Positions 3,047-11,414 of a stretch of DNA of 43,755 nucleotides are shown here, piece by piece. The stretch lies in the NCBI GenBank assembly GCA_029778075.1, contig JAKORA010000334.1, positions 1-43,755 of the forward strand, in the 5' to 3' direction. The translations under genes were made by a program, and so were the position numbers. The DNA is from Bacillota bacterium (GTDB taxonomy: Bacteria; Bacillota; Dethiobacteria; DTU022; UBA8154). Every line of letters begins with the position of its first letter. Within the stretch, counting starts at the first letter, position 1. The notes beneath the pieces are model-generated. The model was not told where the DNA came from and did not search any database. It saw nothing but the letters and a program-made list of their open reading frames with translations.

Positions 3047-5509
3047 CTACTGTTCGTCATCGGGCTCCTGGCGGTTATTATGATCTTTGCTCTCGCTGTT
3101 TTGAGTATCTGCCTTTTCCCGTTCACCTGATTGTTTGCCCAGTGCTTCATGGAATTCCCTTAATTTTTTCTCGACGAGATAATTAATTGTCCCCTCGGGA
3201 TATTTCCCGTCTTCACCCCGTTCGCCTGCCGGTATCCCCGTCAGTATAGAGATACCCTCATCTACTGTTTTGACGGCATAAATATGAAATTTGCCGTCGC
3301 GGACAGCCTCCACGATTTCATCGTCGAGCATCAAGTTTACAATATTTTGATGGGGAATAATAACCCCCTGATCTCCGGTCAGGCCTTTAAGTTTGCAAGC
3401 GGCAAAAAAGCCTTCAATTTTTTGGGTAATACCCCCTACCGGTTGTATTTCACCTTTCTGGTTTACAGAGCCACTCACGGCAATGTTCTGCTTAATCGGG
3501 ACGCCGCTGAGGCTGGAAAGCAGGGCATATAGCTCGGTGCTTGAAGCGCTGTCCCCGTCCACCCCTTCGTAGGACTGTTCAAAGCAAATACTTGCTGACA
3601 AGGTCAGGGGAATTTTTTGGGCATATTTCTGTCCCAGGTAGCCGCTAATTATCATAACACCCTTGTCATGAATGCGGCCACTCATCTTGCTTTCCCTTTC
3701 AATGTTGACAATCCCCCTGCGTCCCAGGAAGGTAGAAGCAGTAATACGGGAAGGACGGCCGAAGATATAGTCCCCCAGATTTAAAACGGCAAGGCCGTTA
3801 ATCTGGCCTACTTTTTCACCTGACAAATCAAGTAGTATCTGTCCCTCCTCCACAAGCTCCAGAAGCTTTTTCTCATACTTGTCAGAGCGAAAAGTCTTTT
3901 CCTTAATAGCTTTTTCGACATGGCTTTTGCTTACATATCTGGCTCCTTCCATCCTGGCCCAGGCATCGGCTTCATAAAGAATCTCCACAATGTCGTTAAA
4001 GCAAGTGGTAAGCTTCTCCTGGTGATCCGCCAGGCGCGAGCTATATTCCATAACCCTGGCGACCCCCGAGCGGTCAAAGTGCTTTAAACCCTCTCTCCGG
4101 CAGTGATTGGAGATAAAATTGGCCATTTTGGCGATATTTTCTGCTGATCGTTCCATAACGGTATCAAAATCCGCTTTAACTTTAAACAGTTTGCGGAAGT
4201 CCTCGTCATAACGGTAAAGAAGCTGGTAAAGCAGAGGATTGCCGATCAGAATAACTTTAACATCCAGAGGAATGGGTTCGGGTTTCAAAGTGGACATGGC
4301 TAAAAGGGCATACTGTTCGCCAATGGTTTCTATGCGAATTTCTCTTGTCTTCAAAACGCGCTTTAAGGCCTCCCAGGACTGGAGATTGAGCAAAACATCG
4401 TTGGCCTGCAGTATCAAGTAGCCTCCATTAGCCCTGTGCAGCGCCCCGCTTCTAATCATTGTAAAGTCAGTGGTAATCATTCCCATCCTGTTTTCATGCT
4501 CCACCCGGCCGACAAGATTGTAGTAGGTGGGATTGGGCTCCACCACAACAGGGGCGCCTCCAGTGTCCCGATTATCAATAAAGAGATTGACGGCATACTT
4601 TTTCGCAGCAGCATCGGGCCCCCTCTTTAACCAGAAAAAGGGGAACTGTTTGTCGTCCTCCTCCTCATCTTTAAAATCACCCAGATTTTCCAGGACATCC
4701 GCTTTAAGTGCTTCCAGGTAACTTAAAACCTTGGGGAAATCCTTGTATTTTTCTTTTAACTCATCAATTAAATGCCCTACTGCCTGCAAGCCTGTTTGAT
4801 ATTCCAACTCCTTGAAGCGGTCTTTAATATTTTTTTCTTCGTTTTGAATAAGCCTGACGATTTCCATGGCTTTTAGCTGGACCTCGGTAGACTTTTTCTC
4901 CAACTCTTCTCTTTGTGATTGCTCCAGTTGGTTGTACTCCTCCTCGCTCATTTCCCTTCCCTCTTTTAGAGGTATAGTTAAAAAGCCTGTTCCGGTCTTT
5001 TTCAATACAAAACCATTTTCCTGGGCAACCCTGTTTAATTTCTCCACTAAAGCGCTCCTGATCTCCTGGAACTCTTTAAAAATAGCCCCTTTCTGCCTTT
5101 CGTACTCCTCTGATTTAAATACTTTAGGAATCTCTTCCTTTAATTCTTCCAAAAGATTGTCAATATCCCTGGCAAAGACGCTGCCTTTACCCGCCGGCAG
5201 GTTCAAGGCCATGGGTTCACTGGGATTTTTAAAGTTATAGAGGTAGCACCAGTCATCAGGAACAGGCTCCCTCTTGGCAACTTCCCGGGCAATGGAGTGG
5301 GCATAGCTGGTTTTTCCTGTTCCGGTAATACCGGTCATAAAAATATTGTAACCGTGCCTTTTAATATTCAGGCCGAAATTCATGGCCTTAACGGCTCTTT
5401 CCTGCCCGATAATATCTTCCAGCGGTTTTATCTCCTCAGTCGTTTCAAACTCAAACATAAGAGGGTCGCATTTTTTTACCAGTTGTTCAGCTTCCAGCCT
5501 GCTGTGCAC
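3047..5509 (-). CDS. Lon-type ATP-dependent protease (COG1067-like)
   Basis: This is an 820-aa cytosolic AAA+ serine protease of the Lon superfamily, S16 clan. The N-terminal P-loop is GITGTGKTS near residues 60-68. The proteolytic domain is C-terminal, with Ser654 in DGDSASSTE and Lys697 in GGITQKIEG. The 43-residue Ser-Lys spacing equals that of E. coli Lon (679/722). A long charged, probably coiled-coil insertion occupies about residues 115-280. I choose GTG 5509 because AAGGAGG lies 9 nt upstream; the frame extends to 5563 without a ribosome site. It differs from classical LonA in lacking the LAN domain. Its targets are unknown. Confidence 0.88.
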   Translation of the reverse strand: MHSRLEAEQLVKKCDPLMFEFETTEEIKPLEDIIGQERAVKAMNFGLNIKRHGYNIFMTGITGTGKTSYAHSIAREVAKREPVPDDWCYLYNFKNPSEPMALNLPAGKGSVFARDIDNLLEELKEEIPKVFKSEEYERQKGAIFKEFQEIRSALVEKLNRVAQENGFVLKKTGTGFLTIPLKEGREMSEEEYNQLEQSQREELEKKSTEVQLKAMEIVRLIQNEEKNIKDRFKELEYQTGLQAVGHLIDELKEKYKDFPKVLSYLEALKADVLENLGDFKDEEEDDKQFPFFWLKRGPDAAAKKYAVNLFIDNRDTGGAPVVVEPNPTYYNLVGRVEHENRMGMITTDFTMIRSGALHRANGGYLILQANDVLLNLQSWEALKRVLKTREIRIETIGEQYALLAMSTLKPEPIPLDVKVILIGNPLLYQLLYRYDEDFRKLFKVKADFDTVMERSAENIAKMANFISNHCRREGLKHFDRSGVARVMEYSSRLADHQEKLTTCFNDIVEILYEADAWARMEGARYVSKSHVEKAIKEKTFRSDKYEKKLLELVEEGQILLDLSGEKVGQINGLAVLNLGDYIFGRPSRITASTFLGRRGIVNIERESKMSGRIHDKGVMIISGYLGQKYAQKIPLTLSASICFEQSYEGVDGDSASSTELYALLSSLSGVPIKQNIAVSGSVNQKGEIQPVGGITQKIEGFFAACKLKGLTGDQGVIIPHQNIVNLMLDDEIVEAVRDGKFHIYAVKTVDEGISILTGIPAGERGEDGKYPEGTINYLVEKKLREFHEALGKQSGEREKADTQNSESKDHNNRQEPDDEQ

Positions 5510-5729
5510 CTTTTTCTCCTCCTTCCGGTACGTTCTATGCTTTACTAAATTTAAGAGTGTCACTTTAACTAACTAATTTTCTTTTTTCTTTCCTTATTTT
5601 CCTGTCAGAAGCAGAAAATTTTTATTTAGTTTCTCCTGAAAAATTGTTCTTTGAAAACTATATCTATAACCAATAACCTACAATAATCATATTCGAAGCT
5701 ATTACCTACCGGATATTGCTAATTTACTA

Positions 5730-5776
5730 TGCCAGTTGGGCAATCCTTTGCAAAGGATTTTGCCGGCAGACTGGCA
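5730..5776. other. 47-nt imperfect palindrome
   Basis: TGCCAGT (5730-5736) pairs with ACTGGCA (5770-5776). Inside it, AATCCTTTGCAAAGGATT is a perfect 18-bp palindrome. No T-run follows. It could be an operator or RNA hairpin for the divergent Lon-type gene; the role is unknown. Confidence 0.55.
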
Positions 5777-5882
5777 GTGAGCCTTATCTAACACGGTACT
5801 CGAAGCACAACCCTTCTATGAACCGCAGTCTGCAAATATGATCCGGGAAAGGTAACTCTTTCTAGCAGTCGAGCTGTCAGGC

Positions 5883-5911
5883 TTGACATTCTACAATCAA
5901 AGTTATAGAAT
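5883..5911 (+). promoter_or_regulatory. Sigma-A type promoter for the acyl-CoA synthetase transcript
   Basis: A perfect -35 TTGACA (5883-5888), a 17-bp spacer and a -10 TAGAAT (5906-5911) are visible on the plus strand. The next plus-strand gene starts at 6268, giving a leader of about 350 nt. An 8-bp stem (GAGATCAG 5919-5926 with CTGATCTC 5968-5975) begins right at the predicted start of the transcript. Confidence 0.7.
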
Positions 5912-6150
5912 CGAGCATGAGATCAGTTAACTTAAGCTTGCAAAAGGTACCCTATTTAATACTGTCGCTGATCTCCTAAACCGGAAGTTTTTAAAAGGAA
6001 AGAGGTCTTAAATAGTTAACCCTGAAAAACACCTTATAAAATTCCTGAAAAATAGAAATGTTTGCCACCATATTATTTATGATGATGCAGGGAATACTAC
6101 CGGTAGTGAATAATCAGCGGGATCTGGGACAAAAAGGAGAACGTTTGCCC

Positions 6151-6267
6151 ATGAAGGAGTAACTATGAAGGAGGAGCAATTATGAAGTAGCAATTTAGGA
6201 AGCAATTATAAGGAGCAATGATGGAGCAATGATGGAGCAATTATGAGGAGCAACGAAGGGAGCAATT
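6151..6267 (+). repeat. Tandem SD-start codon micro-repeats with overlapping mini-ORFs
   Basis: Degenerate 11-14 nt units of the type GGAGCAATTATGA recur about eight times directly before the synthetase start. They create short ORFs, several with a good Shine-Dalgarno: ATG 6151 (MKE), 6165 (MKEEQL), 6182 (MK), 6218 (MMEQ), 6229 (MMEQL) and 6243 (MRSNEGSNYEGTIFEQTV). Several stops overlap the next start as ATGA. The last unit supplies the start of the main gene at 6268. Slippage expansion or a translational control device are both possible. Confidence 0.75.
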
Positions 6268-8520
6268 ATGAGGGAACAATATTTGAGCAAACTGTTTAAC
6301 CCAGAGAGTATTGCCGTAATAGGGGCTTCAAAGAAGCCGGAAAAAGTAGGATATGCCATCGTTAAAAATCTGCTGGAATGCGGCTATCCCGGCAAGATAT
6401 ATCCCATTAACCCACGGGAAGAACAGATTTTAGGGCTGCGCTGCTATAAAACGGTCAGTGAACTGTTATCCTCGAAGGAAAAAGGGGATCCCGTGGGTAT
6501 AGATTTGGCTGTCATCGCCATCCCCGCTTCCAGGGTGCTGGAAGCTGTAAAAGAATGTGCCGGAAACAATATTAACCTGGTAATCGTCATTACGGCAGGT
6601 TTCAAGGAAACAGGCCCTGAAGGCCTGGAACTGGAAAAGAAACTAACAGCATTCTGTCATGAGCATAAAATACGCCTTTTGGGACCAAACTGCGTTGGAG
6701 TGTTGCATACCCATACTCCTATTAACGCCTCTTTTTCCAGGGGTTTTCCGCAAAAAGGGCATATCTCCTTTATTTCCCAGAGCGGCGCCATGCTTGTTTC
6801 CATTATCGACTGGAGCAAAACAGCCGGCCTGGGGTTTTCCCACTTTGTCAGCCTCGGTAACAAAGCCGATCTAAACGAGATAGACTTTCTCGAATATTCC
6901 GGTTGGGACCCGACCACCAGAGTAATTTTGTGTTATCTTGAGGAAATCGCTGACGGACCAAAATTTTTAGAAACGGCCAGCCGTATTTCCACCCGCAAGC
7001 CAATTATTGTCCTCAAAGCCGGCTCCAGTCCCGCCGGAGCAAGAGCCGCTACCTCCCATACAGGAGCCCTGGCCGGTTCCGATAGCGCTTATAACGCCGC
7101 CTTCAAACAAAGCGCCGTGCTTAGGGCCGAAAACATGGAAGAGCTGTTCGATATGGCTTTTGCTTTCGCCAACCAGCCCCTTCCCCAAGGTAACAGAATT
7201 GCTGTCGTAACGAATTCCGGAGGACCGGGCATTTTAACAACAGACTGTATAGAAAAGATGGGGCTGCATATGGCCCGCTTTACGGCGGAGACCTCCCAGC
7301 AGCTGAGAACTTTTTTGCCGCCCGAAGCCAGTATTTACAACCCGGTGGATGTCCTGGCGGATGCCCCGGCCGAACGCTACCGTTTTGCTCTGGAAAAAGC
7401 CCTCTCCGATCCACAGGTGGACGGAGTTATTGTTTTGCTGTGCCCGACGGCCACAACAGATCCCCGGGAAATAGCGCACAGTATCCTGGAAATAAGAAAA
7501 GAACTTCCGGAAAAACCGCTTCTGTCCGTTTTTATAGGCGGGAAGGAAATCCAGGAAGCACAAAACATCCTCAGGGAGGGGCGAATACCCTGCTATACTT
7601 TTCCGGAAAGAGCGGTTGCCGCCATGGCAGGCATGGTCAGGTACTATAGAAACAGTGCCGCGTTGCGTGAAAAAACAGAACTCCTAAAAAAGACAGCTAA
7701 AAAGGCGCAAAGGGAGCCGGAACCGCATTGCCCGGTATATAATACAGCGCAAGTTAAAGCCACCTTTTATGACGCGTTAAGAGAAAGAAGAGTGGTTCTC
7801 CTGGGACATGAAGGTATCAAGGTTCTCTCTGCGTTCAAAATCCCGGTGGCACCCATCAAGCTCGCCAAAGACGCAGAGGAGGCGGCACGGATAGCTGAAG
7901 AAGTGGGTTTTCCCGTCGTTCTCAAAATAGCCTCCCCCAAAATCCTACATAAGACTGACATTGGCGGGGTAGTTGTAGGGCTCGAAAACGGCAGGGAAGT
8001 AAAAAGGCACTTTGAAGAAATAATGCACAGGGTCCAGCGTTTTGTTCCTGATGCACCGTTTTACGGTATCGAAGTGCAAAAAATGATGCCTGCGGGAATG
8101 GAGATAATAATTGGCTCCTCTTATGATATTCAGTTCGGCCATTTGCTGGCTTTTGGACTCGGAGGCATATATGTAAATCTTTTCCAGGATTTTTCCCTAC
8201 GGCTGACTCAAAACCTGGAGGAATCAGACATCGATGAAATGATTAAAGAAACTAAAGCTTACCGCCTCTTGCGAGGGTTCAGGGGAAGCAATCCCCTGGA
8301 TATACAATCCTTAAAAGATACGCTTCTCAAGGCGGCACACCTGGTCACGACCTTCCCTGAAATCAGGGAGCTGGATATAAACCCTCTCCTTGTCTATGAA
8401 AAAGGGGTGTGTGCCGTTGATGTAAAAATTACTCTTTCTCATAATCTTGTGGATGATGTTCATCCGGTAGGGGAACGCGAAGAGCAATTAATCGAGCAAT
8501 TTGCAGAAAGGAGGAGCTGA
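6268..8520 (+). CDS. ADP-forming acetyl/acyl-CoA synthetase (fused alpha-beta)
   Basis: This enzyme converts acyl-CoA + ADP + Pi to acid + CoA + ATP, a one-step energy-conserving reaction of anaerobes (COG1042 type). The order in the 750 aa is CoA-binding domain (residues 1-130, VIGASKKPEKVGYAIVKNL), succinyl-CoA-ligase-like domains with the phospho-histidine segment SHTGALAGSD near 257, and an ATP-grasp domain (about 510-735; FPVVLKIASPKILHKTDIGG). The start ATG 6268 follows GGGAGCAATT, the last unit of the micro-repeat array. It is followed by a DRTGG protein, with which it is probably co-transcribed. The acyl substrate (acetate, benzoate or another) is not determined. Confidence 0.9.
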   Translation: MREQYLSKLFNPESIAVIGASKKPEKVGYAIVKNLLECGYPGKIYPINPREEQILGLRCYKTVSELLSSKEKGDPVGIDLAVIAIPASRVLEAVKECAGNNINLVIVITAGFKETGPEGLELEKKLTAFCHEHKIRLLGPNCVGVLHTHTPINASFSRGFPQKGHISFISQSGAMLVSIIDWSKTAGLGFSHFVSLGNKADLNEIDFLEYSGWDPTTRVILCYLEEIADGPKFLETASRISTRKPIIVLKAGSSPAGARAATSHTGALAGSDSAYNAAFKQSAVLRAENMEELFDMAFAFANQPLPQGNRIAVVTNSGGPGILTTDCIEKMGLHMARFTAETSQQLRTFLPPEASIYNPVDVLADAPAERYRFALEKALSDPQVDGVIVLLCPTATTDPREIAHSILEIRKELPEKPLLSVFIGGKEIQEAQNILREGRIPCYTFPERAVAAMAGMVRYYRNSAALREKTELLKKTAKKAQREPEPHCPVYNTAQVKATFYDALRERRVVLLGHEGIKVLSAFKIPVAPIKLAKDAEEAARIAEEVGFPVVLKIASPKILHKTDIGGVVVGLENGREVKRHFEEIMHRVQRFVPDAPFYGIEVQKMMPAGMEIIIGSSYDIQFGHLLAFGLGGIYVNLFQDFSLRLTQNLEESDIDEMIKETKAYRLLRGFRGSNPLDIQSLKDTLLKAAHLVTTFPEIRELDINPLLVYEKGVCAVDVKITLSHNLVDDVHPVGEREEQLIEQFAERRS

Positions 8521-8521
8521 C

Positions 8522-9637
8522 TTGCTACAAAAAATTTACTTAATGGGCCGATCAGGTTCCGGAAAAACTGCCGTCGCCCTGGGCCTCTCCCTGCTCTGGA
8601 AAGAAAAAGGGTTAAATGTTGCCTATTTCAAGCCAAAAACTACGGGACACAACCTGCAGCGCAATCAGGATCCCGACGCCATTCTCTTTAAACAGGTCTT
8701 GAACCTTCCCTGGGAACCGGAACAAATAGCCCCGTTAAATTTTGAATCCATCTATATTTTTGGAGCTTCAAACCACAATCGCCTGACAGTAGAAAAAATG
8801 GAAGCGAAATTAGAAGAAAATTTCAGGGATATAGGCGATAATAACGGGATCATGGTTATAGAAGGGGGGAGTTCCCCCTGTGCCGGAATGTCCCTTTCCC
8901 TTGATGACTTCAGCCTGGCTAAAAGATGGGAAGCCCCTGTAATTTTAATTTCCAATCTGAACAAAGACTATGACTTGGATCGCATCCTTTTTTACAACAA
9001 CTTTATCCAAGCCAGGGGTCTTTATATTCTGGGGAACATTTTAAACAATCTTTCACCGGCGGCCCTCGATAAGGCCAGGAACATTTACCGTCCCTTACTG
9101 GAAGAAAAAGGCTATAAAGTGTTGGGTATAATCCCGGCACATCCTGCCATAACCTTTCCTACCGTAGCCGAGTTTCACGAAACGCTGCAAGGGGAGATCC
9201 TGTGCGGAGAAGAAAACATGGGGCTACCGGTAGAGGAGATTGTGGTGGGAACCATGACCATTGAAAGTGCCCTGAGGTATCTGCGCAGAGCTTTAAACAA
9301 GGCCGTTATTACCGGAGGGGATCGAAGCGACATGGCTTTGACAGCCCTGGAAACAAGCACTTCCGTCCTCATCCTTACAGGAGGTCTGCATCCCGATATC
9401 CGCGTAATTGCACGTGCCCGGGAGAAAGGTATCCCTGTGATCCTCGTTCATTTCGATACTTATACCACCATTGGGGCACTGCAAGGCATTGCCAGGCAGA
9501 TTCGCCCCCAGGACAGCAGAACCATATCGCTAATCAAAGAAGAAGTGGCGCGTAATTGTTCTTGGGAAAAAATCGAGGAGGGAATAGAATCCTACAGTGT
9601 CTTTTCTTCTACTGAAAGAGGTGCTGAAGGACAGTAG
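8522..9637 (+). CDS. P-loop/DRTGG-domain protein (phosphotransacetylase N-domain-like)
   Basis: This 371-aa protein has an N-terminal BioD-like P-loop (YLMGRSGSGKTAVALGLSLL) and a C-terminal DRTGG-type domain (VITGGDRSDMALTALETSTS). The arrangement matches COG0857, the regulatory half of long phosphotransacetylases, without the catalytic Pta domain. The TTG start at 8522 has AGGAGG 7 nt upstream; the SD lies inside the end of the synthetase gene. Such stand-alone proteins are often paired with ADP-forming acyl-CoA synthetases, as here, which suggests a nucleotide-sensing role (inference). The 3' end overlaps the convergent nth by 46 bp. Confidence 0.78.
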   Translation: MLQKIYLMGRSGSGKTAVALGLSLLWKEKGLNVAYFKPKTTGHNLQRNQDPDAILFKQVLNLPWEPEQIAPLNFESIYIFGASNHNRLTVEKMEAKLEENFRDIGDNNGIMVIEGGSSPCAGMSLSLDDFSLAKRWEAPVILISNLNKDYDLDRILFYNNFIQARGLYILGNILNNLSPAALDKARNIYRPLLEEKGYKVLGIIPAHPAITFPTVAEFHETLQGEILCGEENMGLPVEEIVVGTMTIESALRYLRRALNKAVITGGDRSDMALTALETSTSVLILTGGLHPDIRVIARAREKGIPVILVHFDTYTTIGALQGIARQIRPQDSRTISLIKEEVARNCSWEKIEEGIESYSVFSSTERGAEGQ

Positions 9638-10257
9638 AGGCTCAGGGAGCAGGAACTGCACAAGGGTTTTCTGGCCCGGCAAACCCGGCGACCATGCGCA
9701 ATCAGCCGGTGATGGGTTTCGCTCCAGAGTTCCGGGGGTAATAAACGACAGATGTCTTCTTCCACGGCTAAAGGGGTTTTTCTTTTGCTCCACCCAAGAC
9801 GCCGGCATAGACGCTGCACATGAGTATCCACGGCAAAGGCAGGAATACCAAAAGCATTGCTTAAAACCACATTCGCCGTTTTACGGCCCACCCCGGGAAG
9901 CGTCATAAGCTCTTCTCTCGTCCGGGGAACCTCGCCGCCGAATTTTTCACACAACAGGCGCGAGGTTTCCATAATTTGCCGGCTCTTTTGCCGGTATAAT
10001 CCGCATCCTTTGATCGCTTTTTCCAGCCAGGCAACTCCCCGGTCCAAAATGTCACAGGGGCCTTTTATTTGCGAAAAAAGCCTTCCCGTAATCTTGTTTA
10101 CCTGCTGATCCGTTGTCTGCGCGGAGAGTATTGCGGCCAGAAGCAGCTCAAAAGGAGTGTTATAGCGTAAGGCCGTTGTTGCCGCCGGGTATTCCTGCTC
10201 CAGGATTTGTAAGATCTTTTTAATGCTAGAAGGTTTTTTGTTAATATTATTTTCCAA
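9592..10257 (-). CDS. nth: Endonuclease III
   Basis: This is a DNA glycosylase/AP lyase for oxidised pyrimidines. The helix-hairpin-helix LPGVGRKTANVVL carries the catalytic Lys, FAVDTHVQR the catalytic Asp, and CRARKPLCSSCSLSLYC is the C-x6-C-x2-C-x5-C ligand set for the [4Fe-4S] cluster. I choose TTG 10257 (AAGGGAG about 10 nt upstream), giving 221 aa, the usual size. The frame is open to 10320 but that part has no ribosome site. The start overlaps the 3' end of the broken malic enzyme gene, so nth was probably the last gene of that operon. Confidence 0.9.
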   Translation of the reverse strand: MENNINKKPSSIKKILQILEQEYPAATTALRYNTPFELLLAAILSAQTTDQQVNKITGRLFSQIKGPCDILDRGVAWLEKAIKGCGLYRQKSRQIMETSRLLCEKFGGEVPRTREELMTLPGVGRKTANVVLSNAFGIPAFAVDTHVQRLCRRLGWSKRKTPLAVEEDICRLLPPELWSETHHRLIAHGRRVCRARKPLCSSCSLSLYCPSAPLSVEEKTL

Positions 10258-11414
10258 TCTTTCGAGCTCCCTTAATACCCCTTCCTTTTCCCCATCTCTT
10301 CGGCACAGGTATAATACCACTCTCCATAAGCAACTTGGTTTGCTCTTGAGCTCGTTTAATTTTTTGCAGGGCGGTTTGGTACACTGTTTCCCGATCCAGT
10401 TTCAGGCGGGCAACTCCTTCCGTAATAGCCTGCATAGCGGTGGCAGCGGCGACCCTGGGGTATACCTCCCGGTCATCCATAACCGGTAGTATTTTTTCCG
10501 GATTTAGTCTTTTTTCGGAGGCGCAAGCAGCCAGTTCCTTTGCCGCGGCTATGCACATGGTATCCGTAATAGTGCTGGCCTGAACATCCAGAACACCGCG
10601 AAAAATAGCAGGGAAACCAAGGGAATTGTTAACCTGATTGGGAAAATCGGAACGTCCGGTTGCTACCACGGCAGCACCGGCTTCCTTGGCCTCCCAGGGC
10701 CATATTTCCGGAACGGGATTGGCGCAAGCAAATACTATGGCGTCTTTGGCCATTGCCTCTACCCATTCTTTTTTAATTGTATCCGGCCCCGGCCTGGAAA
10801 GGGCGATTACTACATCAGCATCCTTCATGGCTTCCGGGATACCCCTGTACACCCGCCTGTGTTGCTAATCTCGATCATGTCGAGCTTCTCCCGGTGAGCT
10901 TCTGTAATATCGTTCCTGCCTTTATGCAGTATCCCCTTGCTGTCACACATAACAATATTTTTGCCGGGAACACCGGCAGCCAGTAAAAGGCGGGCGGTGG
11001 CAACATTTGCCGCACCCACGCCAATCATCGCTATTTTAACCTTCTCCAACTCTTTATCCACTATCTGCAAAGCGTTGAACAGCCCGGCTAAAGTAACACA
11101 GGCTGTCCTGCTGATCATCATGCCACACAGGGATATGGCACTCCCGGCGCAGCCGCTCCAGGATGTAAAAACATTTGGGGCTGGCAATATCCTCCAAATT
11201 GATACCGCCGAAACTCGGCTGCAACATTTTCCTTACGGGCTTGAATAGCCCGGCAGGGAGCCGCCACCCCCGGAGTATACCATACGGCGAAATCATGGTA
11301 ATCATGGACGGCAGCCTTCAGGGTTACCTCCACCTTACCCTGGTAAAAAGGATGTAATTTCATGGCCTCTTCAGCAGGTTTCTCTGCATTGGCCAACAAC
11401 TCCTCCTTATTCAA
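10247..11414 (-). pseudogene. NAD(P)-dependent malic enzyme, disrupted
   Basis: Malic enzyme decarboxylates malate to pyruvate. Its parts are spread over three frames. The N-terminal part (from ATG 11414, [19 protein letters not shown]) breaks near 11230, where about 70 residues usually found before [11 protein letters not shown] are missing. The HDDQ segment at about 11125 lacks one base, so [15 protein letters not shown] is shifted. A further one-base lesion near 10855 separates EISNTGG from YRGIPEAMKDADVVIALSRPG. The NAD-binding part (MIGVGAANVATARLLLAAGV) and the C-terminus remain readable. With three lesions including an internal deletion, activity is very unlikely unless the assembly is wrong. 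It lies between fumarase beta and nth. Confidence 0.87.

Follow-up and report, generated by a model that had tools for sequence, protein, structure and literature searches.

The gene for an ADP-forming acyl/acetyl-CoA synthetase with fused subunits (750 aa; 6268–8520, plus strand) is preceded, directly at its start codon, by a nine-unit tandem array (6151–6267, plus strand; consensus ATGAAGGAGCAATT) that constitutes a net insertion of 117 bp in the ancestral first codons of the gene, and this array is missing in the sister genome G001 and in three further congeneric genomes. On balance we favour the reading that the array is a slippage-born minisatellite derived from the gene's own start, and that its minigenes constitutively, and only modestly, tune translation of the synthetase, probably with a lower net output. 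The synthetase itself was recognized by Pfam matches to CoA_binding_2, Succ_CoA_lig, Ligase_CoA_2, and ATP-grasp_5. The window, i.e., the whole 43,755-nucleotide stretch that was analysed, represents contig C154 in a Bacillota draft genome (2.39 Mb in 409 contigs; 87% complete, 7% contamination) that is apparently metagenome-assembled, like its named relatives, which include Dethiobacter sp. SURF_39 (G002) and Bacillota UBA9862. Our comparison set contained one genome per species, with G001 (90% protein identity) as the sister genome; a plasmid database search gave no match.

The nine units measure 14, 17, 15, 11, 13, 11, 11, 14, and 11 bp (117 bp in total) and are degenerate, while the native start of the synthetase gene forms a tenth unit. 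The original prediction, made from the letters of the DNA, had described a repeated unit of Shine-Dalgarno (SD) sequence and ATG at 6151–6270 with the main start codon lying inside the last unit, which agrees with our analysis, in which the ATG of the first unit is at 6151 and the main ATG at 6268–6270; only its count of about eight units was slightly low. The array contains six exact GGAGN5ATG pairs, as against a mean of 0.06 and a maximum of two in 20,000 shuffles, so a chance origin is excluded. Repeated 7-mer pairs were similarly in excess (72, with a shuffle mean of 1.9 and a maximum of 13), the highest score in the window, and Tandem Repeats Finder picked up the array with several periods. 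A looser window-wide search (GGAGCAATTATGA, up to three mismatches) gave 16 matches where 14.6 were expected, which is not significant; seven of these cluster in the array. The insertion is itself in frame and reading frame 0 through its 117 bp holds four stops, so the array is no N-terminal extension of the synthetase. The leader RNA was less structured than its shuffles (z +1.1), and its start sites should therefore be accessible; a structured leader or riboswitch was dropped as a candidate on this ground and because an Rfam search of 5300–6600 returned no family match up to E = 1. A leader bound by TRAP is a series of G/UAG triplets with spacers of 2–3 nt. The spacers between such triplets here are 0 or 5–17 nt, and a TRAP-like binding array was rejected.

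Comparison with relatives indicates where the repeated unit came from. Synthetase orthologues in more distant family members, like those of the four congeners, start without an array, and at this position G001 reads ...TAAGGAGTACTTTATTCGTCTATGAAGGAGCAATATTTGAGCAAACTG. When the window was aligned to G001 by BLAST the match fell into two parts sharing the 13-bp stretch TATGAAGGAGCAA of G001 (locus L025, 2255–2267), which comprises the last leader base, the start codon, and codons 2–4. As this one G001 segment matches both the left and the right end of the array, we conclude that the array arose by tandem expansion of the beginning of the coding sequence. All nine units are closer to the G001 coding start (summed score 176) than to the SD region of G001 (110) or the old SD region of the window (105; shuffled sequence ~92), and an origin from the upstream SD region of either genome was rejected. 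The claim that the array grew from the real ribosome site thus stands for the translation start and fails for the upstream ribosome-binding site, which is still in its old place: the copied segment is the start codon with codons 2–4, and the ancestral ribosome-binding site and spacer are retained at 6134–6150 (plus strand; AAGGAG at 6134–6139), aligned with the single G001 leader (TAAGGAGTAC...CTATGAAGGAGCAA). A resemblance to the unit was also seen in the SD region of G002, a more distant genome (sum 175), so leader sequence may have contributed as well. In G001 there is a short repeat, TAT, 13 bp apart, and AAGGAG occurs twice, once as the SD and once as codons 2–3; both features could have served as seeds of slippage. 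Judged from the alignment, the start used in the relatives corresponds to 6151, and the working start has shifted to 6268, in unit 10, where the protein now begins MREQYLSKLF (MKEQYLSKLF in the orthologue).

Eight upstream ATGs, all on the plus strand, open six distinct mini-ORFs of 2–18 codons in this leader, in line with the at least six that had been predicted. The ancestral start at 6151 with codons 2–3 is now the minigene MKE* (unit 1, 6151–6162), since the G001 ATG AAG GAG CAA reads ATG AAG GAG TAA here and the codon after GAG is a stop. The second mini-ORF, MKEEQL* (6165–6185), begins 2 nt past the stop of the first, and its TGA overlaps the ATG of the third, the two-codon MK* (6182–6190), which has the best SD match of the leader. 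After an interruption of the chain at 6191–6217 there follow MMEQ* (6218–6232, with MEQ* nested from 6221) and MMEQL* (6229–6246, with MEQL* nested from 6232), the stop of the latter overlapping the ATG at 6243 that opens the last, an out-of-frame ORF of 18 codons (6243–6299) that overlaps the main start. The ATGA stop/start overlaps that had been noted beforehand lie at 6182–6185 and 6243–6246, and the SD spacing at 6165, 6182, 6221, 6232, and 6243 does equal that at 6268. Short ORFs with their own SD upstream of the main ORF, the mark of leader minigenes, are accordingly present in the array. Their stops lie at various distances from the main start: MMEQL* ends 21 nt and MK* 77 nt before it, and the 18-codon ORF extends 32 nt into the main gene. 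By a crude, home-made initiation score (duplex, spacing, and start codon) the minigene starts equal or beat the main start, with −16.4 for MK*, −12.6 for the old start at 6151, and −9.4 for 6268. The idea that duplication had improved the ribosome site was dropped, as the new start scores below the old one on this crude scale.

The favoured history would run as follows. After the split from the sister species, the 13–14 bp segment ATGAAGGAGCAA (start codon and codons 2–4) would have been duplicated repeatedly, presumably by slippage. Because codons 2–3, AAG GAG, are themselves a Shine-Dalgarno sequence, each duplication supplies the next ATG with an SD site, and every new copy would thereby set a ribosome-binding site 5 nt upstream of the ATG of the following copy. 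The old start region would in this manner have become a leader of six minigenes, with the working start moved 117 bp downstream. Ribosomes should initiate within the array, given that the old start and MK* outscore the main start; they would be expected to terminate after 2–6 codons and in part to reinitiate, either at 6268 or at the start that comes next; the 18-codon ORF, which crosses the main start out of frame, would divert some of them. Net output would then probably fall below that of the ancestral leader, and under this model lower or buffered synthesis of the synthetase is the likeliest net effect, although its sign is uncertain because expression is raised by the leader minigenes described for txe and ler.

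Alternatively, the array may be a neutral minisatellite, a set of slippage repeats without appreciable effect, with most ribosomes binding the last GGAG and the ATG at 6268 directly. It is consistent with this that the array is known from one species only, that 11-bp minisatellites with GGAG and ATG also occur away from gene starts (L047, described below), and that across the ten units ATG and GGAG are each conserved in seven, no better than the CAA linker (nine of ten), so that there is no sign of selection on the translation signals. However, at least five upstream ATGs have an SD as good as the main one and one ORF crosses the main start out of frame, which makes complete neutrality unlikely, and we give this explanation a distinctly minor place.

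More speculative is an extension of the favoured history in which the start acts as a self-propagating cassette: in genes that begin ATG-AAG-GAG, where codons 2–3 would serve any tandem copy as its SD, one slip would make an upstream minigene, and repeated slips would build a functional leader that is kept to set synthetase expression. A little more doubtful again is a leader selected for increased expression, in which the repeated ribosome sites would serve to load ribosomes, shield the mRNA, or promote reinitiation, as with txe and ler. The increase in expression reported for short leader minigenes (PMC8708949), the strong SD of the two-codon MK*, and the ATGA and 2-nt stop-start contacts all point this way, as does the apparent retention of the array for much of the independent history of the lineage. 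The latter is suggested by the divergence of the units from their consensus, ~7% (substitutions; 8 changes in 111 sites), next to a divergence of 16% from G001 at four-fold sites; from these small numbers the array seems to be an old feature of its lineage that is not being actively homogenised. Against selection for increased output, the chain is broken after the third mini-ORF, the best minigene terminates 77 nt short of the main start, which the last ORF crosses, and the predicted site of the main start is weaker than the ancestral one.

We consider it quite improbable that the leader is a CsrA target or sponge, in which GGA motifs in unstructured RNA would bind several CsrA dimers and so gate translation of an acetate-metabolism gene. 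A csrA gene is present in this genome (88.5 bits), and there are eleven GGA motifs within ~140 nt, mostly 11–25 nt apart, which is compatible with known sites, these being SD-like GGA motifs more than 7 nt apart (summary in PMC4679880). Yet these motifs follow from the repeat, since every SD contains GGA; there are no evident hairpins with GGA in their loops (as the z-score above also suggests), G001 and G004 (both incomplete genomes) yielded no CsrA, and the orthologous leaders are without an array. An assembly artefact is conceivable in a contig from so fragmented a draft with the completeness and contamination given above, but we think it very unlikely: both flanks match the relatives in order, nearly all units differ from one another in a way that an assembly loop would not create, and a typical short read can cross the array because it is only 117 bp long. 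Least credible is the phase-variable switch by unit number that had also been proposed; units of 11–17 bp could slip, but the main start follows the array with its own GGAG, all nine single-unit deletions leave the main gene in frame and eight of them also preserve its GGAG and start ATG (the exception being the last unit, whose loss changes the SD context), and the units, diverged and unequal in length, do not resemble a hypervariable repeat, so on/off variation is unlikely.

The original prediction had further suggested a search for similar arrays before other genes of this genome, and none were found: a pattern of three SD-ATG-like pairs occurred only at this locus. The same pattern retrieved no comparable array from 97 other genomes of the class, the two that matched doing so at a gene end and at a repeat away from a start. 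When 398 phylum genomes were scanned, a set that shares 16 members with the class set (this genome is one of the 16), nine other genomes gave matches; on inspection these proved to be protein-coding repeats, gene ends, a minisatellite between genes (L047), and one analogue, weak and independent (L048). A wider family of arrays was therefore rejected, with none comparable in this genome or its class and a single weak analogue among ~380 further genomes of the phylum; the array is a real lineage-specific oddity, and there is no evidence of a widespread system or switch. The analogue (G420:C2, ~242578–242613) is a 12-bp GGAGTAATTATG-like repeat of about four copies that runs in frame into the start of a gene which, judged by eye, looks TetR-family. 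L047 (1436–1605, in G117) lies in an intergenic region and consists of 15 copies of an 11-bp minisatellite unit, TGGAGTACGTA, with 347-bp tandem repeats after it. A simpler layout was seen in the orthologous leader of G002 (L027, 2976–3012), where a good SD (GAGGAGCAATTA) precedes just one minigene, ATG TAC TTA TGA; the stop of this minigene overlaps the main ATG, making it a one-unit version of a similar arrangement.

Downstream of the synthetase lies a gene for an AAA_26/DRTGG-domain protein (8501–9637, plus strand) whose N-terminal part is phosphotransacetylase-like by its domain matches; the two reading frames overlap and the genes probably share an operon. On the upstream side, ~430 bp (5629–6061 of the window) are missing at the same place in G001 and represent a decayed insertion sequence, the ends and a middle piece of which match G004:C82 (L042–L045), where the ORFs carry DUF772 and DDE_Tnp_1 transposase domains. 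This element holds a good match to a sigma-70-like promoter (TTGACA-17-TAGAAT, 5883–5911) facing the synthetase gene. Further along the window, on the minus strand, a malic-enzyme-like sequence (10247–11187) looks split: in 10247–10852 only the last part of the Malic_M domain is matched, and an ORF in another frame (10825–11187) lies just upstream, possibly marking a pseudogene or a frameshift.

The ancestral state kept in the sister species shows how the first codons of a gene can give rise to a series of leader minigenes, and if the start-site cassette proves true it would be a mutational route by which such minigenes arise. Were the minigenes translated, the locus would be a natural test case for the influence of unit number and stop-start distance on reinitiation. 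A further lesson concerns the annotation of starts, which may be misled here, as position 6151 is homologous to the start of the relatives yet now encodes a three-codon ORF.

Among known systems, the leader minigenes mg2 of axe-txe and the two-codon minigene of ler (LEE1 operon) act in cis on the translation of the gene that follows and raise its expression (PMC8708949). As in these cases, the ORFs of the array are very short, come with an SD of their own, and lie close to the main start or directly upstream of it; unlike them, with their one or two minigenes, the array has six, which arose by tandem duplication of the gene's own start. The distances also differ. Stop-start overlaps between successive mini-ORFs recall termination-reinitiation at ATGA/TGATG, ATGA overlaps being associated with translational coupling (PMC6728339); in contrast to coupling as presented there, the main gene here is not ATGA-joined to a minigene, and the last overlapping ORF ends inside it. 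The TAACTGA direct repeats upstream of start codons in marine Beggiatoaceae, Cyanobacteria, and Bacteroidetes, for which a role in translation has been proposed, are likewise short direct repeats at the ribosome-binding region (PMC4679880). They are, however, exact heptamers with little SD character, found as 169 sets in a Beggiatoaceae genome, while the present array is one locus of degenerate 11–17 bp units with SD and ATG, derived from a coding start (PMC4679880). With ordinary bacterial minisatellites (VNTR) the array shares tandem degenerate units, restriction to a single species, and a slippage-like origin, but its unit holds both a start codon and an SD, and it sits exactly on a translation start.
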